Positions 720-63,472 of a stretch of DNA of 64,000 bases are shown in pieces. Numbering within the stretch: the stretch's first letter is position 1; each line of letters opens with the position of its first letter. Source of the DNA: Siphonodentalium dalli (Eukaryota > Mollusca > Scaphopoda > Gadilida > Siphonodentaliidae); contig CP136062.1 in the NCBI GenBank assembly GCA_032622095.1, positions 158,340,875 through 158,404,874 on the forward strand, in the 5' to 3' direction. A program made the translations under genes and the position numbers. Under the pieces are notes generated by a model. It was given only the letters and a program-made list of their open reading frames with translations. It did no database searches and was not told the origin of the DNA.

Positions 720-812
720 GCAGAATGAGGTCTCCAGAGGGTGAATTTAGTGATGCTTTCCCGCACAGCGGCCTAGCATCACCAAATTCACCTTCTGGAG
801 ACCTCATTCTGC
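720..812. repeat. Hairpin type I (38-bp arms)
   Basis: Left arm 720-757 and right arm 775-812 are reverse complements apart from two positions (one G-T, one A-C). The loop is 17 nt (758-774). The arm core reads TCTCCA on the left and TGGAGA on the right. Confidence 0.9.
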
Positions 813-1012
813 TTAGGCCTCATCTTCTGGGAAGTATCTATAGTATCAAAATAACATTGTTGTTAGTTACATTTCCCTTCTTGGAAGTTTGTATATCCCC
901 TAATTTGCAGAAGATAAATTCATAATTGAGGTGCCCAATGGGTGAACATCACCAACTTCAACTGGGGAACTTCAATCTTATCCTAGGTCTGCCATTGCAG
1001 TTGAGGCCCTTA

Positions 1013-1105
1013 GCAGAATGAGGTCCTCAGAGGGTGAATTTAGTGATGCTAGCCCGCTGTGCGGGATAGCGTCACTAAATTCACCCTCTGAGGACCTCAT
1101 TCTGC
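1013..1105. repeat. Hairpin type II, copy a (45-bp arms)
   Basis: Arms 1013-1057 and 1061-1105 surround a 3-nt loop, with only a T-G and a G-A mismatch near the tip. The arm core is TCCTCA paired with TGAGGA. It thus differs from the type I hairpin at positions that remain paired. Confidence 0.9.
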
Positions 1106-1470
1106 AAATGACAGACACACTATCACGCTATTTCAAGGCTTGATTGTATAATACATTGTGTTGCTTGAGGCCAGGCATGCACAATGTAGGAACAGACACG
1201 CTTTTAGTGATGCTATCCCGCACAGCGGGCTAGCATCACCAAATTCACCCTATGGAGACCTCATTCTGCTTAGGCCTCATCTTCTGGGAAGTATCTATAG
1301 TATAAAATTTACATTGTTGTTAGATAAATTTCCCTTCTAGGAAGTTTCTATATCCCCTAATTTGCAGAAGATAAAATTCATAATTGAGGTGCCCAATGTG
1401 TCAACATCACCAACTTCAACTGGGGAACTTCAATCTTATTCTAGGTCTTCCATAGCAGTTGAGGTCCTTA

Positions 1471-1563
1471 GCAGAATGAGGTCCCCAGAGGGTGAATTTA
1501 GTGATGCTAGCCTGCTGTGCGGGATAGCGTCACTAAATTCACCCTCTGGGGACCTCATTTTGC
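1471..1563. repeat. Hairpin type II, copy b
   Basis: The layout matches the 1013 hairpin (93 bp in total). The arm core is TCCCCA paired with TGGGGA, a third matched variant. The terminal CATTTTGC pairs with GCAGAATG through one G-T. Confidence 0.9.
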
Positions 1564-1900
1564 AAATGACAGACACACTATCACACTATTTCAAAGCTTG
1601 ATTGTATAATACATTGTGTTGCTTGAGGCCAGCATGCACAATGTAGGAACAGACAAGCCTTTTGTGATGCTATCCCGCACAGCGGGCTAGCATCACCAAA
1701 TTCACCCTCTGGAGACCTCATTCTGCTTAGGCCTCATCTTCTGTGAAGTATCTATAGTATCAAATTTACATTGTTGTTAGTTAAATTTCCCTTCTAGGAA
1801 GTTTCTATATCCCCTAATTTGCAGAAGATAAATTCATAATTGTGGTGCCCAATGGGTGAATATCACCAACTTCAACTGGGGAACTTAAATATTATCCTTA

Positions 1901-5097: not shown

Positions 5098-6166
5098 TTC
5101 GATTTTTTCTTACTTCTGTTCAAAATTGAGACATAATCGTGGCATGAAAGTTCAATACGGAAAATCATGAAATATTGAGTTAAGGTTGGCGTCAAGTTCA
5201 ACCAGCATTCCCAGATTACTAACAAAATTAATGTTGTGCCAAAGTTGGGTGGGTTAGACTCTTTCCAAACACATCATATCCCCATGTCCCTCGACCAGCG
5301 TACTCTGCATGTAGTTTAATGCCAGTATGTGTTTTGAATTCCAGCTGTGATAACTGAGATCTGTATGTTGTGAAATATTTGTCGCGTCATCGTCATTTTA
5401 GAGATACTTAGTCCGATATTATCACCTCCAATTTAATATGTTTCGGGTTCTGTTGTGAAAACACTGAAAAGTCTCATATGAGTGGAGGAACCCAACATTC
5501 AAAGCTCAGAGTTATTATAAATCGATTATTGACATCTATGTAGTTTATTCACCTCAAATTCCACTGGAATTCCCCAGCAATTATCAAAATATATGTAAAT
5601 AATACATATTCACTTGGGATCTTGTACTTGTTTTATTATGTGCCTAAAACTTATCACTGGATCAGGAATAATTGAACAAATGTACCCGATTGCCAGCCAT
5701 CAAAAGGTAGTGTCGCTTTTGTCTCTAGTAGACATTTTCGTCGGCTTTTTTCCAACAATCATTTCCGATCACCACTAAATGAAACATCACATATCCGTAT
5801 ATATTTCCGTTGGAATTTTTACCAAGCTAATAAATATTTGAGGTGTATATAATAAATACATTTCATTAAACGGATACCTAATAGCTCTTAGCTTTGAAGG
5901 GTGAGTCCTTCGACAATAACAAGAAATATTTGTTCACCCCTAATGAGAAGGAATAGTAATATAAGGGTACTAAATCTTGCAACGCACCTTTAACCATGAC
6001 CCATGAGCAAGTTTCACATTATTAACCATATTAACATATCTAACATAGTTACCTTCCCACAAATTATTCTAGACATTGATTCATGTCAATGTTTCCCCTA
6101 TTCCAGAATCAACGAAATATGTTAGTTAAATCTCCCGATGACCATGTTAATTGCTTCGATTTTCAG

Positions 6167-6337
6167 TGAATGGTAAGTGGACCCCCTGGGCACGGTGGAG
6201 TCGATGTAACAAAAAATGTGGACGTGGAAGAAGGATCAGGAAAAGACGGTGTACGAACCCCGCCCCACGCTACGGTGGCAGAAGATGTCCAGGCAAAGCG
6301 TTGGTGTCAGGGGTGTGTAACTCCAAACCATGTCCAG
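6167..6337 (+). CDS. TSR (thrombospondin type-1) exon 1, type A
   Basis: This 171-bp internal exon encodes 57 residues making one complete TSR, an extracellular module that typically binds glycosaminoglycans, growth factors or receptors. Visible features: the tryptophan ladder WTPWARW (residues 5-11), six cysteines at 14, 18, 29, 41, 51 and 56, the basic strand GRGRRIRKRRC (19-29) and the NPAPRYGG loop (31-38). The acceptor is GATTTTCAG and the donor CCAG|GTAATA. Both boundaries are phase 1, the usual phase for shuffled extracellular modules. A TAA lies in frame just upstream and no in-frame ATG exists, so it must be spliced. The domain has 11 Arg, 6 Lys and no Asp or Glu. CNKKCG lacks the Ser/Thr of the O-fucosylation motif CxxS/TCG, while the WxxW C-mannosylation pattern is present. 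The parent protein cannot be named. Confidence 0.9.
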
Positions 6338-8598
6338 GTAATATATTACAATACGAATTAATCTTTAAACATATTATGAGAAAGAATCGGGCAACAACGA
6401 TAATTACACATATGTGTTCATTACGGTTCCGTTGTCGTTTGATACCTAAAGTTATTATCCGTTTTCTTATACTCGGTCTGGTTGCGTCGGTTACGAGAGC
6501 TTCCAAATGTTATTGGTATTACTTCTGTTCACAATTGAGACATAATCGTGGCATGAAAGTTCAATGCGGCAAATCATGAATTATTGAGTTAAGTTTAACG
6601 TCAAGTTCAACCAGCATTCCCAAATTACTAACAAATGTTTTGACAAAGTTGGGTGGATTAGACACCTTCCAAACACATCATATTCCCATGTCCCTCGACC
6701 AGCGTACTGTGAATGTAGTTTAGTGCCAGTAAGTCTTTTGAATTCCAGCTGTGATAATTGAGATATGTGTGCTGTGAAATATTTGTCGCATCATAGAGAT
6801 ACCTAGTCGATTTCATCACCTCCAAATTAACATTTTTCGGGTTCTGTTGAGAAAAGTTTCATTTGAGTCGAGGAACCCAGCATTCAAAGCTCAGTGCTAT
6901 TAGATATCGATCATTGACATCTATGTAGTTTATTCATCTCAAATTCCACTGGAATTCCCCAGCAAGTTTCAAAATAAATGTAAATAAAACATATGCATGT
7001 GGGATATTGTACTTGTTTTATGATATGCCTAAAAATGGTCACTGGATCAGGAATAATTAAACAAATGTACCCGATTACCAGCCATCAAAATGTAGTGTCG
7101 CTTTTGTTTCTGGTAGACATTTTCGTCGGCTTTTTTCCGAGAATCATTTCCTATCACCACTAAATGAAAATCACATATCCGTATATATTTCCGTTGGAAT
7201 TTTTTACCAAGCTAATACAACTTTGAGGTTTATATAATAAATACATTTCATTAATCGGATACGTAATAGCTCTTAGCTTTGAAGGGCGAGTCCTTCGACA
7301 ATAACAAGAAATATTTGTTCACCCCTAATGAGAAGGAAAAGTAATATAAGTGTACTAAATCAGACAAAGCACCTTTAACCATGACCCATGAGCAAGTTTC
7401 ACATTTTTAACCATATTAACAAATCTAGCATAGTTACCTTCCCACAAATTATTCTAGACATTGATTCATGTCAATGTCTCCAGATTACAGAATCAAAGAA
7501 AGTAGTTAGTTAAATCTCGCGATGACAATGTTGATTCCTTCGATTTGTTCTTACTTCTGTTCAAAATTGAGACATAATCGTGGCATGAAAGTTCAATACG
7601 GAAAATCATGAATTATTGAGTTAAGGTTGGTGTCAAGTTCAACCAGCATTCCCAGATTACTAACAAAATTAATGTTGTGCCAAAGTTGGGTGGGTTAGAC
7701 TCTTACCAAACACATCTATCCCCATGTCCCTCGACCAGCGTACTGTGCATGTAGTTTAGTGTGTTTTGAATTCCAGCTGTGATAACTGAGATCTGTATGC
7801 TGTGAAATATTTGTCGCTTCATCGTCATTTTAGAGATACTTAGTCCGATATTATCACCTCCAATTTAATATGTTTCGGGTTCTGTTGTGAAAACACTGAA
7901 AAGTATGATATGTGTGGAGGAACCCAACATTCAAAGCTCAGAGTTATTATATATCGATTATTGACATCTATGTAGTTTATTCACCTCAAACTCCACTGGA
8001 ATTCCCCAGCAATTATCAAAATATATGTAAATGATACATATTCACGTGGGATCTTGTACTTGTTTTATAATGTGCCTAAAAATTATCACTGGATCAGGAA
8101 TAATTGAAAAAATGTACCCGATTGCCAGCCATCAAAAGGTAGTGTCGCTTTTGTTTCTGGTAGACATTTTCGTCGGCTTTTTTCCGACAATCATTTCCGA
8201 TCACCACTAAATGAAACATCACATATCCGTATATATTTCCGTTGGAATTTTTACCAAGCTAATAACAAGTTGAGGTGTATATAATAAATACATTTCATTA
8301 AACGGACACCTAATAGCTCTTAGCTTTGAAGGGTGAGTCCTTCGACAATAACAAGAAATATTTGTTCACCCCTAATGAGAAGGAATACTAATATAAGGGT
8401 ACTAAATCTTGCAACGCACCTTTAACCATGACCCATGAGCAAGTTTCACATTATTAACCATATTAACATATCTAACATAGTTACCTTCCCACAAATTATT
8501 CTAGACATTGATTCATGTCAATGTTTCCCCTATTCCAGAATCAACGAAATATGTTAGTTAAATCTCCCGATGACCATGTTAATTGCTTCGATTTTCAG

Positions 8599-8769
8599 TG
8601 AATGGTAAGTGGACCCCCTGGGCACGGTGGAGTCGATGTAACAAAAAATGTGGACGTGGAAGAAGGATCAGGAAAAGACGGTGTACGAACCCCGCCCCAC
8701 GCTACGGTGGCAGAAGATGTCCAGGCAAAGCGCTGGTGTCAGGGGTGTGTAACTCCAAACCATGTCCAG
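8599..8769 (+). CDS. TSR exon 2, type B
   Basis: Same 57-residue product as the 6,167 exon, in the same phase, with intact acceptor and donor. It differs by a synonymous C (GCGCTGGTG) that marks the B type. If joined to its neighbours, the linker between domains would be CysPro-ValAsn with no added residues. The following intron is the long B form. Confidence 0.9.
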
Positions 8770-11048
8770 GTAATATATTACAATACGAATTAATCTTTAA
8801 ACATATTATGAGAAAGAATCGGGCAACAACGATAATTACACATATGTGTTCATTACGGTTCCGTTGTCGTTTGATACCTAAAGTTATTATCCGTTTTCTT
8901 ATACTCGGTCTGGTTGCGTTGGTTACGAGAGCTTCCAAATGTTATTGGTATTACTTCTGTTCACAATTGAGACATAATCGTGGCATGAAAGTTCAATGCG
9001 GCAAATCATGAATTATTGAGTTAAGTTTAACGTCAAGTTCAACCAGCATTCCCAAATTACTAACAAATGTTTTGACAAAGTTGGGTGGATTAGACACCTT
9101 CCAAACACATCATATTCCCATGTCCCTCGACCAGCGTACTGTGAATGTAGTTTAGTGCCAGTAAGTCTTTTGAATTCCAGCTGTGATAATTGAGATCTGT
9201 GTGCTGTGAAATATTTGTCGCATCATCGTCATTTTAGAGATATGTAGTCGATTTCATCACCTCCAAATTAATATGTTTCGGGTTCTGTTGAGAAACGTTT
9301 CATTTGAGTCGAGGAACCCAACATTCAAAGCTCAGTGCTAATAGATATCGATTATTGACATATATGTAGTTTATTCACCTCCAATTCCACTGGAATTCCC
9401 CAGCACGTGTCATAATAAATGTAAATAAACATCTTTCACGTGTGATCGGCATGATATTGTTCTTGGCTTATGTTGTGCCTCAAATTATCACTGGATCAGG
9501 AATAAGCAACAAAATGTACCTGATTGCCAGCTATCAAAAGATAGTTTCGCTTTTGTTTCTGGTAGACATTTTCGTCGGCTTTTTTCCGAGAATCATTTCC
9601 TATCACCACTAAATGAAAATCACATATCCGTATATATTTCCGTTGGAATTTTTACCAAGCTAATAAAACTTTGAGGTTTATATAATAAATACATTTCATT
9701 AATCGGATACGTAATAGCTCTTAGCTTTGAAGGGCGAGTCTTTCGACAATAACAAGAAATATTTGTTCACCCCTAATGAGAAGGAAAAGTAATATAAGTG
9801 TACTAAATCAGACAAAGCACCTTTAACCATGAGCAAGTTTCACATTTTTAACCATATTAACAAATCTAGCATAGTTACCTTCCCACAAATTATTCTAGAC
9901 ATTGATTCATGTCAATGTCTCCAGATTACAGAATCAAAGAAAGTAGTTAGTTAAATCTCGCGATGATAAAGCTGATTCCTTCGATTTTTTCTTACTTCTG
10001 TTCAAAATTGAGACATAATCGTGGCATGAAAGTTCAATACGGAAAATCATGAACTATTGAGTTAAGGTTGGCGTCAAGTTCAACCAGCATTCCCAGATTA
10101 CTAACACAATTAATGTTGTGCCAAAGTTGGGTGGGTTAGACTATGTCCAAACACATCATATCCCCATGTCCCTCGACCAGCGTACTCTGCATGTAGTTTA
10201 ATGCCAGTATGTGTTTTGAATTCCAGCTGTGATAACTGAGATCTGTATGCTGTGAAATATTTGTCGCTTCATCGTCATTTTAGAGATACTTAGTCCGATA
10301 TTATCACCTCCAATTTAATATGTTTCGGGTTCTGTTGTGAAAACACTGAAAAGTCTCATATGAGTGGAGGAACCCAACATTCAAAGCTCAGAGTTATTAT
10401 AAATCGATTATTGACATCTATGTAGTTTATTCACCTCAAATTCCACTGGAATTCCCCAGCAATTATCAAAATATATGTAAATAATACATATTCACTTGGG
10501 ATCTTGTACTTGTTTTATAATGTGCCTAAAAATTATCACTGGATCAGGAATAATTGAACAAATGTACCCGATTGCCAGCCATCAAAAGGTAGTGTCGCTT
10601 TTGTTTCTGATAGACATTTTCGTCGGCTTTTTTCCAACAATCATTTCCGATCACCACTAAATGAAACATCACATATCCGTATATATTTCCGTTGGAATTT
10701 TTACCAATCTAATAAATATTTGAGGTGTATATAATAAATACATTTCATTAAACGGATACCTAATAGCTCTTAGCTTTGAAGGGTGAGTCCTTCGACAATA
10801 ACAAGAAATATTTGTTCACCCCTAATGAGAAGGAATAGTAATATAAGGGTACTAAATCTTGCAACGCACCTTTAACCATGACCCATGAGCAAGTTTCACA
10901 TTATTAACCATATTAACAAATCTAACATAGTTACCTTCCCACAAATTATTCTAGACATTGATTCATGTCAATGTTTCCCCTATTCCAGAATCAACGAAAT
11001 ATGTTAGTTAAATCTCCCGATGACCATGTTAATTGCTTCGATTTTCAG

Positions 11049-11219
11049 TGAATGGTAAGTGGACCCCCTGGGCACGGTGGAGTCGATGTAACAAAAAATG
11101 TGGACGTGGAAGAAGGATCAGGAAAAGACGGTGTACGAACCCCGCCCCACGCTACGGTGGCAGAAGATGTCCAGGCAAAGCGTTGGTGTCAGGGGTGTGT
11201 AACTCCAAACCATGTCCAG
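11049..11219 (+). CDS. TSR exon 3, type A
   Basis: The protein is identical to exon 1, with the A-type synonymous T at GCGTTGGTG. Both splice sites are intact. It lies 4,882 bp from exon 1, one full higher-order step, and its flanking intron matches exon 1's more closely than exon 2's. Confidence 0.9.
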
Positions 11220-13480
11220 GTAATATATTACAATACGAATTAATCTTTAAACATATTATGAGAAAGAATCGGGCAACAACGATAATTACACATATGTGTT
11301 CATTACGGTTCCGTTGTCGTTTGATACCTAAAGTTATTATCCGTTTTCTTATACTCGGTCTGGTTGCGTCGGTTACGAGAGCTTCCAAATGTTATTGGTA
11401 TTACTTCTGTTCACAATTGAGACATAATCGTGGCATGAAAGTTCAATGCGGCAAATCATGAATTATTGAGTTAAGTTTAACGTCAAGTTCAACCAGCATT
11501 CCCAAATTACTAACAAATGTTTTGACAAAGTTGGGTGGATTAGACACCTTCCAAACACATCATATTCCCATGTCCCTCGACCAGCGTACTGTGAATGTAG
11601 TTTAGTGCCAGTAAGTCTTTTGAATTCCAGCTGTGGTAATTGAGATATGTGTGCTGTGAAATATTTGTCGCATCATAGAGACACCTAGTCGATTTCATCA
11701 CCTCCAAATTAACATTTTTCGGGTTCTGTTGAGAAAAGTTTCATTTGAGTCGAGGAACCCAGCATTCAAAGCTCAGTGCTATTAGATATCGATCGTTGAC
11801 ATCTATGTAGTTTATTCATCTCAAATTCCACTGGAATTCCCCAGCAAGTGTCAAAATAAATGTAAATAAAACATATGCATGTGGGATATTGTACTTGTTT
11901 TATGATATGCCTAAAAATGATCACTGGATCAGGAATAATTAAACAAATGTACCCGATTACCAGCCATCAAAATGTAGTGTCGCTTTTGTTTCTGGTAGAC
12001 ATTTTCGTCGGCTTTTTTCCGAGAATCATTTCCTATCACCACTAAATGAAAATCACATATCCGTATATATTTCCGTTGGAATTTTTTACCAAGCTAATAC
12101 AACTTTGAGGTTTATATAATAAATACATTTCATTAATCGGATACGTAATAGCTCTTAGCTTTGAAGGGCGAGTCCTTCGACAATAACAAGAAATATTTGT
12201 TCACCCCTAATGAGAAGGAAAAGTAATATAAGTGTACTAAATCAGACAAAGCACCTTTAACCATGACCCATGAGCAAGTTTCACATTTTTAACCATATTA
12301 ACAAATCTAGCATAGTTACCTTCCCACAAATTATTCAAGACATTGATTCATGTCAATGTCTCCAGATTACAGAATCAAAGAAATAAGTTAGTTAAATCTC
12401 GCGATGACAATGTTGATTCCTTCGATTTTTTCTTACTTCTGTTCAAAATTGAGACATAATCGTGGCATGAAAGTTCAATACGGAAAATCATGAATTATTG
12501 AGTTAAGGTTGGTGTCAAGTTCAACCAGCATTCCCAGATTACTAACAAAATTAATGTTGTGCCAAAGTTGGGTGGGTTAGACTCTTTCCAAACACATCTA
12601 TCCCCATGTCCCTCGACCAGCGTACTGTGCATGTAGTTTAGTGTGTTTTGAATTCCAGCTGTGATAACTGAGATCTGTATGCTGTGAAATATTTGTCGCT
12701 TCATCGTCATTTTAGAGATACTTAGTCCGATATTATCACCTCCAATTTAATATGTTTCGGGTTCTGTTGTGAAAACACTGAAAAGTATGATATGTGTGGA
12801 GGAACCCAACATTCAAAGCTCAGAGTTATTATATATCGATTATTGACATCTATGTAGTTTATTCACCTCAAACTCCACTGGAATTCCCCAGCAATTATCA
12901 AAATATATGTAAATGATACATATTCACGTGGGATCTTGTACTTGTTTTATAATGTGCCTAAAAATTATCACTGGATCAGGAATAATTGAACAAATGTACC
13001 CGATTGCCAGCCATCAAAAGGTAGTGTCGCTTTTGTTTCTGGTAGACATTTTCGTCGGCTTTTTTCCGACAATCATTTCCGATCACCACTAAATGAAACA
13101 TCACATATCCGTATATATTTCCGTTGGAATTTTTACCAAGCTAATAACAAGTTGAGGTGTATATAATAAATACATTTCATTAAACGGACACCTAATAGCT
13201 CTTAGCTTTGAAGGGTGAGTCCTTCGACAATAACAAGAAATATTTGTTCACCCCTAATGAGAAGGAATACTAATATAAGGGTACTAAATCTTGCAACGCA
13301 CCTTTAACCATGACCCATGAGCAAGTTTCACATTATTAACCATATTAACATATCTAACATAGTTACCTTCCCACAAATTATTCTAGACATTGATTCATGT
13401 CAATGTTTCCCCTATTCCAGAATCAACGAAATATGTTAGTTAAATCTCCCGATGACCATGTTAATTGCTTCGATTTTCAG

Positions 13481-13651
13481 TGAATGGTAAGTGGACCCCC
13501 TGGGCACGGTGGAGTCGATGTAACAAAAAATGTGGACGTGGAAGAAGGATCAGGAAAAGACGGTGTACGAACCCCGCCCCACGCTACGGTGGCAGAAGAT
13601 GTCCAGGCAAAGCGCTGGTGTCAGGGGTGTGTAACTCCAAACCATGTCCAG
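13481..13651 (+). CDS. TSR exon 4, type B
   Basis: The protein is identical to exon 2 with the B-type synonymous site; splice sites are intact. It lies 4,882 bp from exon 2. The downstream intron carries GTTGCGTTGG as in exon 2, against GTTGCGTCGG in A-type units. Confidence 0.9.
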
Positions 13652-15930
13652 GTAATATATTACAATACGAATTAATCTTTAAACATATTATGAGAAAGAA
13701 TCGGGCAACAACGATAATTACACATATGTGTTCATTACGGTTCCGTTGTCGTTTGATACCTAAAGTTATTATCCGTTTTCTTATACTCGGTCTGGTTGCG
13801 TTGGTTACGAGAGCTTCCAAATGTTATTGGTATTACTTCTGTTCACAATTGAGACATAATCGTGGCATGAAAGTTCAATGCGGCAAATCATGAATTATTG
13901 AGTTAAGTTTAACGTCAAGTTCAACCAGCATTCCCAAATTACTAACAAATGTTTTGACAAAGTTGGGTGGATTAGACACCTTCCAAACACATCATATACC
14001 CATGTCCCTCGACCAGCGTACTGTGAATGTAGTTTAGTGCCAGTAAGTCTTTTGAATTCCAGCTGTGATAATTGAGATATGTGTGCTGTGAAATATTTGT
14101 CGCATCATCGTCATTTTAGAGATATGTAGTCGATTTCATCACCTCCAAATTAATATGTTTCGGGTTCTGTTGAGAAACGTTTCATTTGAGTCGAGGAACC
14201 CAACATTCAAAGCTCAGTGCTAATAGATATCGATTATTGACATATATGTAGTTTATTCACCTCCAATTCCACTGGAATTCCCCAGCACGTGTCATAATAA
14301 ATGTAAATAAACATCTTTCACGTGTGATCGGCATGATATTGTTCTTGGCTTATGTTGTGCCTCAAATTATCACTGGATCAGGAATAAGCAGCAAAATGTA
14401 CCTGATTGCCAGCTATCAAAAGATAGTTTCGCTTTTGTTTCTGGTAGACATTTTCGTCGGCTTTTTTCCGAGAATCATTTCCTATCACCACTAAATGAAA
14501 ATCACATATCCGTATATATTTCCGTTGGAATTTTTACCAAGCTAATAAAACTTTGAGGTTTATATAATAAATACATTTCATTAATCGGATACGTAATAGC
14601 TCTTAGCTTTGAAGGGCGAGTCTTTCGACAATAACAAGAAATATTTGTTCACCCCTAATGAGAAGGAAAAGTAATATAAGTGTACTAAATCAGACAAAGC
14701 ACCTTTAACCATGAGCAAGTTTCACATTTTTAACCATATTAACAAATCTAGCATAGTTACCTTCCCACAAATTATTCTAGACATTGATTCATGTCAATGT
14801 CTCCAGATTACAGAATCAAAGAAAGTAGTTAGTTAAATCTCGCGATGATAATGCTGATTCCTTCGATTTTTTCTTACTTCTGTTCAAAATTGAGACATAA
14901 TCGTGGCATGAAAGTTCAATACGGAAAATCATGAAATATTGAGTTAAGGTTGGCGTCAAGTTCAACCAGCATTCCCAGATTACTAACAAAATTAATGTTG
15001 TGCCAAAGTTGGGTGGGTTAGACTATGTCCAAACACATCATATCCCCATGTCCCTCGACCAGCGTACTCTGCATGTAGTTTAATGCCAGTATGTGTTTTG
15101 AATTCCAGCTGTGATAACTGAGATCTGTATGCTGTGAAATATTTGTCGCTTCATCGTCATTTTAGAGATACTTAGTCCGATATTATCACCTCCAATTTAA
15201 TATGTTTCGGGTTCTGTTGTGAAAACACTGAAAAGTCTCATATGAGTGGAGGAACCCAACATTCAAAGCTCAGAGTTATTATAAATCGATTATTGACATC
15301 TATGTAGTTTATTCACCTCAAATTCCACTGGAATTCCCCAGCAATTATCAAAATATATGTAAATAATACATATTCACTTGGGATCTTGTACTTGTTTTAT
15401 AATGTGCCTAAAAATTATCACTGGATCAGGAATAATTGAACAAATGTACCCGATTGCCAGCCATCAAAAGGTAGTGTCGCTTTCGTTTCTGGTAGACATT
15501 TTCGTCGGCTTTTTTCCAACAATCATTTCCGATCACCACTATATGAAACATCACATATCCGTATATATTTCCGTTGGAATTTTTACCAAGCTAATAAATA
15601 TTTGAGGTGTATATAATAAATACATTTCATTAAACGGATACCTAATAGCTCTTAGCTTTGAAGGGTGAGTCCTTCGACAATAACAAGAAATATTTGTTCA
15701 CCCCTAATGAGAAGGAATAGTAATATAAGGGTACTAAATCTTGCAACGCACCTTTAACCATGACCCATGAGCAAGTTTCACATTATTAACCATATTAACA
15801 AATCTAACATAGTTACCTTCCCACAAATTATTCTAGACATTGATTCATGTCAATGTTTCCCCTATTCCAGAATCAACGAAATATGTTAGTTAAATCTCCC
15901 GATGACCATGTTAATTGCTTCGATTTTCAG

Positions 15931-16101
15931 TGAATGGTAAGTGGACCCCCTGGGCACGGTGGAGTCGATGTAACAAAAAATGTGGACGTGGAAGAAGGAT
16001 CAGGAAAAGACGGTGTACGAACCCCGCCCCACGCTACGGTGGCAGAAGATGTCCAGGCAAAGCGTTGGTGTCAGGGGTGTGTAACTCCAAACCATGTCCA
16101 G
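15931..16101 (+). CDS. TSR exon 5, type A
   Basis: The protein is identical to exons 1 and 3, with the A-type synonymous site and intact splice sites. It is 2,450 bp after exon 4. A single-base change upstream (CACTATATGAAACATC, where sister copies have CACTAAATG) removes a stop from an intronic frame at 15,378-15,605; I regard that frame as noncoding. Confidence 0.9.
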
Positions 16102-18363
16102 GTAATATATTACAATACGAATTAATCTTTAAACATATTATGAGAAAGAATCGGGCAACAACGATAATTACACATATGTGTTCATTACGGTTCCGTTGTC
16201 GTTTGATACCTAAAGTTATTATCCGTTTTCTTATACTCGGTCTGGTTGCGTCGGTTACGAGAGCTTCCAAATGTTATTGGTATTACTTCTGTTCACAATT
16301 GAGACATAATCGTGGCATGAAAGTTCAATGCGGCAAATCATGAATTATTGAGTTAAGTTTAACGTCAAGTTCAACCAGCATTCCCAAATTACTAACAAAT
16401 GTTTTGACAAAGTTGGGTGGATTAGACACCTTCCAAACACATCATATTCCCATGTCCCTCGACCAGCGTACTGTGAATGTAGTTTAGTGCCAGTAAGTCT
16501 TTTGAATTCCAGCTGTGGTAATTGAGATATGTGTGCTGTGAAATATTTGTCGCATCATAGAGATACCTAGTCGATTTCATCACCTCCAAATTAACATGTT
16601 TCGGGTTCTGTTGAGAAAAGTTTCATTTGAGTCGAGGAACCCAGCATTCAAAGCTCAGTGCTATTAGATATCGATCATTGACATCTATGTAGTTTATTCA
16701 TCTCAAATTCCACTGGAATTCCCCAGCAAGTGTCAAAATAAATGTAAATAAAACATATGCATGTGGGATATTGTACTTGTTTTATGATATGCCTAAAAAT
16801 GATCACTGGATCAGGAATAATTAAACAAATGTACCCGATTACCAGCCATCAAAATGTAGTGTCGCTTTTGTTTCTGGTAGACATTTTCGTCGGCTTTTTT
16901 CCGAGAATCATTTCCTATCACCACTAAATGAAAATCACATATCCGTATATATTTCCGTTGGAATTTTTTACCAAGCTAATACAACTTTGAGGTTTATATA
17001 ATAAATACATTTCATTAATCGGATACGTAATAGCTCTTAGCTTTGAAGGGCGAGTCCTTCGACAATAACAAGAAATATTTGTTCACCCCTAATGAGAAGG
17101 AAAAGTAATATAAGTGTACTAAATCAGACAAAGCACCTTTAACCATGACCCATGAGCAAGTTTCACATTTTTAACCATATTAACAAATCTAGCATAGTTA
17201 CCTTCCCACAAATTATTCTAGACATTGATTCATGTCAATGTCTCCAGATTACAGAATCAAAGAAATAAGTTAGTTAAATCTCGCGATGACAATGTTGATT
17301 CCTTCGATTTTTTCTTACTTCTGTTCAAAATTGAGACATAATCGTGGCATGAAAGTTCAATACGGAAAATCATGAATTATTGAGTTAAGGTTGGTGTCAA
17401 GTTCAACCAGCATTCCCAGATTACTAACAAAATTAATGTTGTGCCAAAGTTGGGTGGGTTAGACTCTTTCCAAACACATCATATCCCCATGTCCCTCGAC
17501 CAGCGTACTGTGCATGTAGTTTAGTGTGTTTTGAATTCCAGCTGTGATAACTGAGATCTGTATGCTGTGAAATATTTGTCGCTTCATCGTCATTTTAGAG
17601 ATACTTAGTCCGATATTATCACCTCCAATTTAATATGTTTCGGGTTCTGTTGTGAAAACACTGAAAAGTCTCATATGAGTGGAGGAACCCAACATTCAAA
17701 GCTCAGAGTTATTATAAATCGATTATTGACATCTATGTAGTTTATTCACCTCAAATTCCACAGGAATTCCCTAGCAATTATCAAAATATATGTAAATAAT
17801 ACATATTCACTTGGGATCTTGTACTTGTTTTATAATGTGCCTAAAAATTATCACTGGATCAGGAATAATTGAACAAATGTACCCGATTGCCAGCCATCAA
17901 AAGGTAGTGTCGCTTTTGTTTCTGGTAGACATTTTCGTCGGCTTTTTTCCAACAATCATTTCCGATCACCACTAAATGAAACATCACATATCCGTATATA
18001 TTTCCGTTGGAATTTTTACCAAGCTAATAACAATTTGAGGTGTATATAATAAATACATTTCATTAAACGGACACCTAATAGCTCTTAGCTTTGAAGGGTG
18101 AGTCCTTCGACAATAACAAGAAATATTTGTTCACCCCTAATGAGAAGGAATACTAATATAAGGGTACTAAATCTTGCAACGCACCTTTAACCATGACCCA
18201 TGAGCAAGTTTCACATTATTAACCATATTAACATATCTAACATAGTTACCTTCCCACAAATTATTCTAGACATTGATTCAGGTCAATGTTTCCCCTATTC
18301 CAGAATCAACGAAATATGTTAGTTAAATCTCCCGATGACCATGTTAATTGCTTCGATTTTCAG

Positions 18364-18534
18364 TGAATGGTAAGTGGACCCCCTGGGCACGGTGGAGTCG
18401 ATGTAACAAAAAATGTGGACGTGGAAGAAGGATCAGGAAAAGACGGTGTATGAACCCCGCCCCACGCTACGGTGGCAGAAGATGTCCAGGCAAAGCGCTG
18501 GTGTCAGGGGTGTGTAACTCCAAACCATGTCCAG
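18364..18534 (+). CDS. TSR exon 6, type B, Thr to Met variant
   Basis: This is the standard 57-residue TSR except that residue 30, directly after the third cysteine, is Met (ATG at 18,450) instead of Thr (ACG). The change is C to T in a CpG, a common mutation type, and is absent from the corresponding exon at 55,927. Synonymous marking is B-type, but the downstream intron carries the A-like GTTGCGTCGG, so the unit looks partly mosaic. Splice sites are intact. Confidence 0.9.
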
Positions 18535-20813
18535 GTAATATATTACAATACGAATTAATCTTTAAACATATTATAAGAAAGAATCGGGCAACAACGATAA
18601 TTACACATATGTGTTCATTACGGTTCCGTTGTCGTTTGATACCTAAAGTTATTATCCGTTTTCTTATACTCGGTCTGGTTGCGTCGGTTACGAGAGCTTC
18701 CAAATGTTATTGGTATTACTTCTGTTCACAATTGAGACATAATCGTGGCATGAAAGTTCAATGCGGCAAATCATGAATTATTGAGTTAAGTTTAACGTCA
18801 AGTTCAACCAGCATTCCCAAATTACTAACAAATGTTTTGACAAAGTTGGGTGGATTAGACACCTTCCAAACACATCATATTCCCATGTCCCTCGACCAGC
18901 GTACTGTGAATGTAGTTTAGTGCCAGTAAGTCTTTTGAATTCCAGCTGTGATAATTGAGATCTGTGTGCTGTGAAATATTTGTCGCATCATCGTCATTTT
19001 AGAGATATGTAGTCGATTTCATCACCTCCAAATTAATGTGTTTCGGGTTCTGTTGAGAAACGTTTCATTTGAGTCGAGGAACCCAACATTCAAAGCTCAG
19101 TGCTAATATATATCGATTATTGACATATATGTAGTTTATTCACCTCCATTTCCACTGGAATTCCCCAGCACGTTTCATAATAAATGTAAATAAACATCTT
19201 TCACGTGTGATCGGCATGATATTGTTCTTGGCTTATGTTGTGCCTCAAATTATCACTGGATCAGGAATAAGCAACAAAATGTACCTGATTGCCAGCTATC
19301 AACAGATAGTTTCGCTTTTGTTTCTGGTAGACATTTTCGTCGGCTTTTTTCCGAGAATCATTTCCTATCACCACTAAATGAAAATCACATATCCGTTTAT
19401 ATTTCCGTTGGAATTTTTACCAAGCTAATAAAACTTTGAGGTTTATATAATAAATACTTTTCATTAATCGGATACGTAATAGCTCTTAGCTTTGAAGGGC
19501 GAGTCTTTCGACAATAACAAGAAATATTTGTTCACCCCTAATGAGAAGGAAAAGTAATATAAGTGTACTAAATCAGACAAAGCACCTTTAACCATGAGCA
19601 AGTTTCACATTTTTAACCATATTAACAAATCTAGCATAGTTACCTTCCCACAAATTATTCTAGACATTGATTCATGTCAATGTCTCCAGATTACAGAATC
19701 AAAGAAAGTAGTTAGTTAAATCTCGCGATGATAATGCTGATTCCTTCGATTTTTTCTTACTTCTGTTCAAAATTGAGACATAATCGTGGCATGAAATTTC
19801 AATACGGAAAATCATGAAATATTGAGTTAAGGTTGGCGTCAAGTTCAACCAGCATTCCCAGATTACTAACAAAATTAATGTTGTGCCAAAGTTGGGTGGG
19901 TTAGTCTCTGTCCAAACACATCATATCCCCATGTCCCTCGACCAGCGTACTCTGCATGTAGTTTATTGCCAGTATGTGTTTTGAATTCCAGCTGTGATAA
20001 CTGAGATCTGTATGCTGTGAAATATTTGTCGCTTCATCGTCATTTTAGAGATACTTAGTCCGATATTATCACCTCCAATTTAATATGTTTCGGGTTCTGT
20101 TGTGAAAACACTGAAAAGTCTCATATGAGTGGAGGAACCCAACATTCAAAGCTCAGAGTTATTATAAATCGATTATTGACATCTATGTAGTTTATTCACC
20201 TCAAATTCCACTGGAATTCCCCAGCATTTATCAAAATATATGTAAATAATACATATTCACTTGGGATCTTGTACTTGTTTTATAATGTGCCTAAAAATTA
20301 TCACTGGATCAGGAATAATTGAACAAATGTACCCGATTGCCAGCCATCAAAAGGTAGTGTCGCTTTTGTTTCTGGTAGACATTTTCGTCGGCTTTTTTCC
20401 AACAATCATATCCGATCACCACTAAATGAAACATCACATATCCGTATATATTTCCGTTGGAATTTTTACCAAGCTAATAAATATTTGAGGTGTATATAAT
20501 AAATACATTTCATTAAACGGATACCTAATAGCTCTTAGCTTTGAAGGGTGAGTCCTTCGACAATAACAAGAAATATTTGTTCACCCCTAATGAGAAGGAA
20601 TACTAATATAAGGGTACTAAATCTTGCAACGCACCTTTAACCATGACCCATGAGCAAGTTTCACATTATTAACCATATTAACATATCTAACATAGTTACC
20701 TTCCCACAAATTATTCTAGACATTGATTCAGGTCAATGTTTCCCCTATTCCAGAATCAACGAAATATGTTAGTTAAATCTCCCGATGACCATGTTAATTG
20801 CTTCGATTTTCAG

Positions 20814-20984
20814 TGAATGGTAAGTGGACCCCCTGGGCACGGTGGAGTCGATGTAACAAAAAATGTGGACGTGGAAGAAGGATCAGGAAAAGACGGTGTA
20901 CGAACCCCGCCCCACGCTACGGTGGCAGAAGATGTCCAGGCAAAGCGTTGGTGTCAGGGGTGTGTAACTCCAAACCATGTGCAG
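20814..20984 (+). CDS. TSR exon 7, last of array, ends KPCAG
   Basis: It matches A-type exons except that the penultimate codon is GCA (Ala) instead of CCA (Pro), as in the diverged exon at 26,360. The donor is GCAG|GTAATA. About a dozen bases past the donor the intron departs completely from the array intron, so this exon marks the downstream edge of the tandem block. The reading frame stops shortly after in the intron, as expected for an internal exon. Confidence 0.9.
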
Positions 20985-25749: not shown

Positions 25750-25920
25750 TGAATGGTAAGTGGGCAAACTGGGCATCGTGAACTCCGTGCAACGCAAAAT
25801 GTGGACGTGGAAGAAGGACCAGGAAAAGGCTATGTACTAATCCCGTCCCACGCTATGGCGACAGAACATGTCCAGGCAAACCGCTAACGTCTCAGGCGTG
25901 TAAATCGAAACCATGTCCAG
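25750..25920 (+). pseudogene. TSR exon with in-frame TGA replacing the third tryptophan
   Basis: This is a full-length 171-bp phase 1-1 exon with a good acceptor (GATGTTCAG) and donor (CCAG|GTATTA). All six cysteines, the first two tryptophans (KWANW) and NPVPRYGD are present. Codon 11, where other copies have TGG (Trp), is TGA at 25,779-25,781. Everything after it remains in frame and TSR-like, so decay is recent or the exon is skipped, which would preserve frame. The identical TGA in the second copy (63,331) shows that it predates the large duplication. Confidence 0.8.
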
Positions 25921-38276: not shown

Positions 38277-39459
38277 TTGCAGAATGAGGTCTCCAGAGGG
38301 TGAATTTAGTGATGCTTTCCCGCACAGCGGCCTAGCATCACCAAATTCACCTTCTGGAGACCTCATTCTGCTTAGGCCTCATCTTCTGGGAAGTATCTAT
38401 AGTATCAAAATAACATTGTTGTTAGTTACATTTCCCTTCTTGGAAGTTTGTATATCCCCTAATTTGCAGAAGATAAATTCATAATTGAGGTGCCCAATGG
38501 GTGAACATCACCAACTTCAACTGGGGAACTTCAATCTTATCCTAGGTCTGCCATTGCAGTTGAGGCCCTTAGCAGAATGAGGTCCTCAGAGGGTGAATTT
38601 AGTGATGCTAGCCCGCTGTGCGGGATAGCGTCACTAAATTCACCCTCTGAGGACCTCATTCTGCAAATGACAGACACACTATCACGCTATTTCAAGGCTT
38701 GATTGTATAATACATTGTGTTGCTTGAGGCCAGGCATGCACAATGTAGGAACAGACACGCTTTTAGTGATGCTATCCCGCACAGCGGGCTAGCATCACCA
38801 AATTCACCCTATGGAGACCTCATTCTGCTTAGGCCTCATCTTCTGGGAAGTATCTATAGTATAAAATTTACATTGTTGTTAGATAAATTTCCCTTCTAGG
38901 AAGTTTCTATATCCCCTAATTTGCAGAAGATAAAATTCATAATTGAGGTGCCCAATGTGTCAACATCACCAACTTCAACTGGGGAACTTCAATCTTATTC
39001 TAGGTCTTCCATAGCAGTTGAGGTCCTTAGCAGAATGAGGTCCCCAGAGGGTGAATTTAGTGATGCTAGCCTGCTGTGCGGGATAGCGTCACTAAATTCA
39101 CCCTCTGGGGACCTCATTTTGCAAATGACAGACACACTATCACACTATTTCAAAGCTTGATTGTATAATACATTGTGTTGCTTGAGGCCAGCATGCACAA
39201 TGTAGGAACAGACAAGCCTTTTGTGATGCTATCCCGCACAGCGGGCTAGCATCACCAAATTCACCCTCTGGAGACCTCATTCTGCTTAGGCCTCATCTTC
39301 TGTGAAGTATCTATAGTATCAAATTTACATTGTTGTTAGTTAAATTTCCCTTCTAGGAAGTTTCTATATCCCCTAATTTGCAGAAGATAAATTCATAATT
39401 GTGGTGCCCAATGGGTGAATATCACCAACTTCAACTGGGGAACTTAAATATTATCCTTA
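38277..39459. repeat. Hairpin satellite, second copy
   Basis: Hairpins are at 38,279-38,371, 38,572-38,664 and 39,030-39,122, with the same three matched arm cores as the first copy. Confidence 0.88.
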
Positions 39460-63301: not shown

Positions 63302-63472
63302 TGAATGGTAAGTGGGCAAACTGGGCATCGTGAACTCCGTGCAACGCAAAATGTGGACGTGGAAGAAGGACCAGGAAAAGGCTATGTACTAATCCCGTCC
63401 CACGCTATGGCGACAGAACATGTCCAGGCAAACCGCTAACGTCTCAGGCGTGTAAATCGAAACCATGTCCAG
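63302..63472 (+). pseudogene. TSR exon with in-frame TGA, second copy
   Basis: The TGA is at 63,331-63,333, identical to the 25,750 exon across the domain. Both splice sites are kept. Confidence 0.8.

Follow-up and report, generated by a model that had tools for sequence, protein, structure and literature searches.

The window, i.e., the whole stretch of 64,000 nucleotides analyzed here (its positions are prefixed with w), comprises almost two tandem copies of a segment of 37.56 kb, each with one array of thrombospondin type 1 repeat (TSR) exons. Within an array, 2.44-kb exon-intron units alternate in two types, and every unit also holds a half copy that has lost its exon. We consider it probable, judging from sequence, that the window belongs to a single large gene whose product would be an extracellular protein composed of TSRs, and that its symmetric exons were amplified stepwise by unequal exchange. 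A single locus would display a ladder of amplification: the monomer, the exon-losing dimer, the A-B higher-order repeat, and a segment duplication with mixed ancestry on either side of the array.

The first array (segment S1) has seven TSR exons, each 171 bp long and of phase 1-1, with boundaries CAG/TG...CCAG/GT. Successive exon starts are 2432, 2450, 2432, 2450, 2433, and 2450 bp apart, which gives a period of 2,441 bp with alternating lead, the order ABABABA, and a dimer of 4,882–4,883 bp (~4.88 kb). Copies within the array are 99.2–99.3% identical at a distance of 4,882 bp vs 95.7–95.8% at 2,441 bp, i.e., block identity is well above unit identity, as in a higher-order repeat. Chance repeats are ruled out by these identities and by the 14,473 20-mer pairs in common at lag 4882 in the window self-comparison, a count far above chance. 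Exon spacings and lag identities confirm the units, their alternation, and the dimer as given in the preliminary description, and its phase argument holds as well: exchange of whole units leaves the frame intact. The array it reported is real, but the start at w5098 lay too far to the right, with full-unit matches from w4508 and a partial unit at w3981–4505. The array spans ~16.5 kb here and contains splice-bounded exons. Its features, all on the plus strand, are as follows.

w4508–20997, plus strand: S1 exon-intron array of 2,441-bp units (ABABABA), from self-alignment and exon calls; partial unit leftward to w3981
w6167–6337, plus strand: TSR exon 1, type A, 171 bp, phase 1-1 (exon and splice-site calls; Pfam PF00090, 43 bits, cut-off 21.6)
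w8599–8769, plus strand: TSR exon 2, type B (this and the following exons from exon and splice-site calls)
w11049–11219, plus strand: TSR exon 3, type A
w13481–13651, plus strand: TSR exon 4, type B
w15931–16101, plus strand: TSR exon 5, type A
w18364–18534, plus strand: TSR exon 6, type B; single residue change Thr to Met
w20814–20984, plus strand: TSR exon 7, type A, final unit; single residue change Pro to Ala
w7505–8594, plus strand: example of an exon-less half copy, from alignment; acceptor flank present, ~350 bp (AG, exon, 5' intron) gone
w5064, w9946, w12387, w14828, w17269, and w19711, plus strand: other acceptor-flank remnants of half copies

As for the half copies, also part of the preliminary description, w7505–7546 aligns to the acceptor flank at w6121–6162, and from w7545 onward the alignment resumes at w6513. 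The ~350 bp absent in between correspond to the acceptor AG, the exon, and ~173 bp of intron. At the level of the half copies, identity is 87–89%. Exon-bearing monomers of ~1.3 kb are located at 158016061–158025238 with a spacing of 1,300–1,333 bp, and two of them align to the exon-bearing half of the 2.44-kb unit at 88–90%. A one-exon monomer of ~1.3 kb would have doubled, with one half then losing its exon through a ~350-bp deletion, the end state of which is what the alignment records. The resulting 2.44-kb unit would have split into types A and B, and the A-B dimer would then have multiplied.

The second segment copy, w37560–64000, is 99.67% identical to w1–26448. This 37.56-kb duplication, each copy with its own array, is absent from the preliminary description. 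Segment copies in the genome are S0 (partial), S1, S2, S3, and S4, having 2, 7, 7, 7, and 5 array exons, respectively, with 28 array exons in the gap-free stretch of the contig. The segment features in the window are listed below.

w1–37559, plus strand: S1, first complete 37.56-kb segment, from the alignment above; S0, S2, S3, and S4 elsewhere in the genome
w37560–64000, plus strand: S2, second segment, cut off by the window end (alignment)
w42071–58560, plus strand: S2 exon-intron array, 7 units (alignment, exon calls)
w43730–58547, plus strand: S2 TSR exons, 7 x 171 bp, starting at w43730, 46162, 48612, 51044, 53494, 55927, and 58377 (exon and splice-site calls)
w25750–25920, plus strand: TSR exon carrying an in-frame TGA (S1); TGA also in the counterparts of S0, S2, S3, and S4 and in the S4-like copy
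w63302–63472, plus strand: second copy of the TGA-bearing TSR exon (S2; exon calls)
w26360–26530, plus strand: non-array TSR exon of the segment (exon and splice calls, Pfam)
w34600–34770, plus strand: non-array TSR exon of the segment (exon and splice calls, Pfam)

For 6 of the 7 S1 units the nearest S2 unit is the positional counterpart, and for the remaining one the counterpart is tied nearest, which makes the duplication of the segment a later event than the formation of the array. When all 28 units are compared, some units of other segments are closer than, or as close as, the S1–S2 counterparts. The last step would be the tandem duplication of the whole 37.5-kb block with its 7 array exons, the exon with the in-frame stop, and the 2 TSR exons outside the array. 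The neighboring units S3.5 and S3.6, offset by 2,450 bp, are identical across 2,606 bp.

Segment S4 is of mixed ancestry, being S3-like before the array and an outlier after it. According to divergence profiles taken on the array flanks in per-kb bins, the upstream difference between S4 and S3 is 0–3 per mille per kb in 7 bins, compared with 0–9 for S4 vs S1 and S2. Downstream S4 is about equally far from S1, S2, and S3 (1–15 per mille over the initial 6 kb, at least 18 beyond), and S1–S3 differ from each other by 0–6 per mille over the first 13 kb. The switch is gradual, with the first 6 kb past the array diverging less than the sequence beyond, and since it is not sharp, exchange or conversion may have occurred more than once. 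The data on S0–S4 fit unequal exchange, within or close to the array, at both unit and segment scale. Such exchange would drive the latest steps from within or near the near-identical arrays, changing domain number and keeping the frame. Gain or loss of whole units is supported inside this one assembly by the array sizes of 2, 7, 7, 7, and 5, the identity of S3.5 and S3.6, and the mixed ancestry of S4.

The identity of S3.5 and S3.6 would also be expected if the assembler, or the joining of two haplotypes, had multiplied units or segments. Gaps of 100 N near 158043029 and 158768687, both inside TSR arrays, point the same way, as do the same-strand partners that the contig stretches between these gaps have outside the contig, in the same order and at 97–99.96% identity. 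The 230 kb around the window, however, are free of gaps, differences between segments are graded, and unit identities persist across segments, unlike simple stuttering. Duplicate haplotypes account for the outer clusters but not for five tandem segments in one contig, and an origin mostly by assembly artefact is very improbable.

Gaps and collinear partners together suggest that the locus was assembled twice, the contig with the window representing one of its haplotypes. The left TSR cluster ends at a gap in an array and has 5'-type sequence only, while the right one begins at a gap in an array and has 3'-type sequence only. These breaks, along with the single order of the partners, argue against the three TSR clusters being real tandem gene copies rather than two haplotypes, which we regard as unlikely and which would be compatible with stepwise amplification. 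In its favor, all three clusters have been assigned to a single scaffold, the sequence at 158.700 Mb has its partner at 160.839 Mb and not near 159.02 Mb, and no near-identical partner was found for the final 680 bases of the contig (mostly a dispersed repeat). The stretch at 158.650 Mb is satellite. If the haplotype reading holds, the number of TSRs probably differs between the haplotypes in each of the two flanking blocks: the 3' block would have at least 11 vs at least 7 TSR exons and the 5' block at least 4 vs at least 1 three-exon modules, with the main array broken in one, these exact copy numbers being insecure since part of the locus is apparently assembled twice, with 100-N gaps within arrays. 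Arrays of this kind break assemblies and inflate gene counts.

Regarding the encoded module, the array exon matches PF00090 with 43.0 bits (curated cut-off 21.6) and covers positions 1–49 of 49. The TSR motif comprises six cysteines and a W-x-x-W-x-x-C start; both are found in the translations of all 14 array exons in the window, with cysteines and tryptophans kept. In the exons of the 1.3-kb monomers one of these cysteines is missing and another is present near the start. The array module carries a charge of +17 in 57 residues and has no D or E. Given this charge and the TSR family, many joined modules might form a multivalent binder of acidic polymers, e.g., sulphated glycans.

The repeats may also be real with the exon array no longer working, as a decaying amplicon in or beside a TSR gene that spreads like a satellite by recombination alone. 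Variable sites are not depleted in the exons (7 of 171, vs 23 of 460 upstream and 23 of 499 downstream, and none among the last 41 upstream sites to the AG), as counted in 27 of 39 units with the six last and six left-cluster units set aside. The dN/dS of array exons to their closest relatives is ~0.5–1.6, i.e., near 1, and values above 1 also occur for some closely related pairs outside the array; pairs with one monomer row (mono2), at most 3 differences, or undefined dS are omitted from this listing. Purifying selection within the array was thus not detected by site variation (27 units) or dN/dS, and without short-range constraint open frames say little about coding when the copies are nearly identical. 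Decay would also fit the in-frame TGA of one TSR exon per segment (6 of the 6 copies seen), the broken frame in three gap-adjoining copies (158037620, 158040053, and 158042487), and the exon already lost from half of each unit. Against it stand the open frames and GT-AG splice sites of 14 of the 14 array exons in the window, their conserved cysteines and tryptophans, and the apparent constraint on the cluster's older TSR pairs (dN/dS 0.23–0.67 at dS >0.6). Almost all TSR frames, moreover, share one strand, with 70 on plus and 2 partial ones on minus in 158280001–158510000 and 9 more on plus in 158510001–158530000. On balance, a nonfunctional array seems unlikely. A centromere-like satellite as the main account was set aside, because exons recur with their splice sites and frames intact and nearly all TSR frames over ~232 kb point the same way.

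Pfam scans of selected ORFs (n = 96, 79, 48, and 65) report TSR families and otherwise only weak matches with E of at least 0.002. The first covers 83 of the 85 window ORFs of at least 45 aa and 13 of 14 from one further stretch; the second, 79 of 132 ORFs of four further stretches, skipping mostly repeats of ORFs taken and known TSRs; the third, 48 of 77 ORFs of two further stretches, including the only 4 minus-strand ORFs scanned. The fourth drew on three further stretches, one at 10 of 35 ORFs. The mollusc haemocyanin family gave matches neither in this genome nor in the control genomes. No start exon, end exon, or non-TSR domain was found among the ORFs selected for the four scans, from which small exons or minus-strand genes can escape, since the scans took only longer ORFs and just 4 from the minus strand. 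A giant TSR protein is likely, with only TSR domains found and nearly all of them on one strand; we infer that they would be joined in one transcript and secreted. A bolder version, which is possible but rather doubtful, would have this protein hypervariable: a single transcript with some tens of near-identical +17 modules (cf. the 28 array exons of the gap-free stretch) and a net charge of several hundred, whose module count varies between alleles via unequal exchange acting simultaneously on unit, A-B dimer, and 37.5-kb segment and is itself a selected trait, e.g., in mucus, adhesion, or defence.

Among the matches listed by literature searches on TSR exon duplication, mollusc TSR expansion, tandem exon duplication, and properdin-like TSR chains, this locus is not reported, and a report may exist. 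By sequence, the best solved-structure relatives are TSR domains of thrombospondin-1 and properdin. Properdin is likewise a chain of TSRs, whereas domains 1–3 of TSP-1 and 2–4 of properdin have a net charge of 0 to +4, as judged by eye, vs +17 and no acidic residue in the array module.

The preliminary description had the higher-order structure right but considered it unusual for coding exons, where it is not unprecedented. Human chromosome 1 NBPF (Olduvai/DUF1220 triplets) has exon-intron monomers of ~1.6 kb that form higher-order repeats of several units (~4.8 kb), whose copies diverge little, according to the available portion of PMC9584774. It resembles the TSR array in this arrangement and, as far as that portion goes, differs in its domain, in having three types of monomer where the TSR array has two, and in its two exons per monomer; in the TSR array, the exon is gone from one half of each unit, and the array as a whole is nested in a further 37.5-kb tandem repeat. 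In human LPA, kringle IV type 2 consists of nearly identical exon-intron units of types A and B, in 1 to >40 copies between alleles (PMC4378929, in part). These units likewise add whole extracellular domains; the LPA unit, however, is 5.5 kb long with two exons, and A-B alternation is not described in the portion of PMC4378929 consulted. Population variation is proven for LPA in the same source, whereas for the TSR array it is what we infer. If the haplotype reading is true, the locus would be an animal case beyond human LPA and NBPF in which whole domains are countable between alleles. Arrays of coding exons with higher-order structure (NBPF) and polymorphism in domain number (LPA) are already known, and the TSR locus is a striking new example.

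The array of thrombospondin type 1 repeat (TSR) exons that the preliminary description placed at window positions 5098-20984 is present as stated, with seven exons at two alternating spacings. Each exon is 171 bp long and of phase 1-1, with acceptor CAG and donor GT.

Starts of the first-array TSR exons (w, window position)
w6167, 8599, 11049, 13481, 15931, 18364, 20814

Spacings of 2432 and 2450 bp take turns (2433 once), so that units of two kinds follow each other with a period of 2,441 bp, and copies are 99.2-99.3% identical at a distance of 4,882 bp vs 95.7-95.8% at 2,441 bp. The exons of the second array share these splice sites. In each array, 5 of the 7 exons translate to the same 58 residues (57 plus a shared glycine codon), and the other two differ by one residue each. 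The exon-less half copy claimed for each unit is likewise real. In the exon-bearing half, the exon stands between its acceptor flank and the intron. The flank of the exon-less half (w7505-7546) runs straight into intron sequence that starts at w6513 of the exon-bearing half, so about 350 bp are missing, namely the AG, the exon, and ~173 bp of intron. Exon loss in one half would explain this; exon gain is less likely, since exon-bearing monomers 1,300-1,333 bp apart exist at C2:158016061-158025238 (C2 being the scaffold that holds the window), and the two of these that were compared with the exon-bearing half match it at 88-90%.

The window (C2:158340875-158404874, in a genome of 2.227 Gb in 9 contigs) contains a larger duplication, w37560-64000 being a second copy of w1-26448 with 99.67% identity.

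Copies of the 37.5-kb segment, with array exons
S0, partial, from C2:158319985: 2
S1, in the window: 7
S2, in the window: 7
S3, outside the window: 7
S4, outside the window: 5

Every segment also carries two more TSR exons and an additional one with an in-frame TGA.

TGA-bearing TSR exon
Window 25750-25920
Window 63302-63472
Further copies in S0, S3, and S4
S4-like copy at C2:158801904

The TGA sits at a usually conserved tryptophan in 6 of 6 copies examined, and, the exon being of phase 1-1, skipping it could keep the frame. Once per segment, at window 746-1898 and 38305-39457, there is also a tandem repeat with a 457-bp unit, 2.5 copies long and with 94% matches.

In a 28-unit comparison, the positional counterpart of each S1 unit is its nearest unit within S2 in 6 of 7 cases and shares that place in the other, so the array order predates the segment duplication; S0 units resemble the last two of S1. 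Two adjacent S3 units, offset by 2,450 bp, are identical across 2,606 bp, reflecting either the gain of a whole unit or a slip in assembly. In S4, w11045-15093 (~4 kb, two exons) is missing, with ~142 bp in its place. Before the array, S4 is nearest to S3: over 7 bins the two differ by 0-3 per mille per kb, vs 0-9 for S1 and S2. After it, S4 is equidistant from S1, S2, and S3 (1-15 per mille up to 6 kb, at least 18 beyond), while S1-S3 differ mutually by 0-6 per mille over the first 13 kb. These values come from the flanks; the whole-segment profile agrees but is blurred within the arrays, where units are shifted. Unequal exchange in or near the array would leave the last copy with a young left and an old right part, as observed. 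Since the divergence climbs gradually after the array, with no single sharp step, there may have been several exchanges, or conversion.

A TSR profile built here reports 70 open frames on the plus strand and 2 partial ones on the minus strand in C2:158280001-158510000, 9 more on the plus strand in 158510001-158530000, and none in 158270001-158280000. Pfam searches of 96, 79, 48, and 65 selected ORFs return TSR families, all else being weak (E-values 0.002 or worse); neither the profiled region nor these ORFs revealed a gene start or end. Downstream, a two-exon TSR module forms a tandem array at C2:158506955-158525802 (period mostly ~2.65 kb), with identical translations in several copies.

As for selection, dN/dS is 0.23-0.67 in those cluster TSR pairs whose dS exceeds 0.6, which fits constraint. 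It is ~0.5-1.6 when array exons are compared with their nearest relatives, and passes 1 in some close pairs outside the array. Across 27 units the array exon shows no variant depletion (7 of 171 sites vary, against 23 of 460 on its upstream side and 23 of 499 on its downstream side); the last 41 upstream sites, ending at the acceptor AG, are invariant, which is unremarkable because variants are so few. Selection thus gives no proof of coding use, which is nevertheless probable because of frame, phase, splice sites, and context. A decayed amplicon, whose repeats are real but whose exons no longer work, is rather unlikely, and a single large TSR gene amplified stepwise is the explanation we favor with fair confidence, slightly tempered by the gradual switch in S4.

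The module's best matches among solved structures are the TSRs of thrombospondin-1 and properdin. Its 57 residues include 6 K and 11 R, with no D or E, and nine counted TSRs in the cluster have net charges of +5 to +18; a chain of array modules may therefore bind acidic polymers strongly and multivalently. The array module has no Ser/Thr where the O-fucose motif (C-x-x-S/T-C-x-x-G) calls for one.

On C2, the related TSR exons among the best 150 matches group into three clusters.

TSR clusters on C2
158006859-158042487, left
158293292-158496910, with weaker ones beyond
158770019-158818809, right

Gaps of 100 N start near C2:158043029, ending the array of the left cluster, and near 158768687, opening that of the right one, both inside TSR arrays. 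Six stretches of the contig between them (3 chosen for their TSR matches, 3 blind) have same-strand partners outside it, in kept order.

Partner pairs on C2, all same strand
158043135 and 157758086: 99%, tandem neighbors match too
158150287 and 157861998: 97%
158283433 and 157997001: 99.63% over 14.3 kb
158457684 and 158768787: 99.96% over 14.2 kb
158495102 and 158817001: 99.87% over 14.9 kb
158700001 and 160838776: 99%, partner ~1.8 Mb beyond its expected place

The genome search found no partner for the contig end, mostly dispersed repeat, or for a satellite stretch, whose query missed even its own locus. This satellite, AT-rich and of short period around GATATCATATTACGGTATAAT at C2:158650001-158653000, is skipped by the search. 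The contig is probably a second haplotype that sits between the broken ends of the first. The two would then differ in TSR content: 11 vs 7 TSR exons in the 3' block, four occurrences of the 5' three-exon module vs one, and a monomer array in one only. The main array is not comparable because it is broken in one of them. The four copies of the three-exon module (C2:158293292-158319761) lie 4.7-10.3 kb apart with ~99% identity, and partial minus-strand TSR frames fall in this region, near 158307757 and 158312482. A ~4.8-kb tandem repeat has four matches on the left (C2:157753260-157770079) and two in the window's contig (158043135-158050292).

Other TSR exon arrays occur on another scaffold, at C6:43191873-43196621 and C6:43236567-43238234 (spacings mostly ~1,263 bp and 498 bp), which suggests that such amplification is recurrent in this genome. 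Distant copies of the array exon lie ~56 Mb off, at C2:214011233 and 214055817 (90% and 95% protein identity). The higher-order structure claimed in the preliminary description is real; it is not without precedent among coding exons, since NBPF exon arrays have such structure (PMC9584774). LPA kringle IV-2 consists of exon-intron units with domain-number polymorphism (PMC4378929). The present array is of the same kind but differs from both in its domain, in the exon lost from half of each unit, and in one extra level of nesting.
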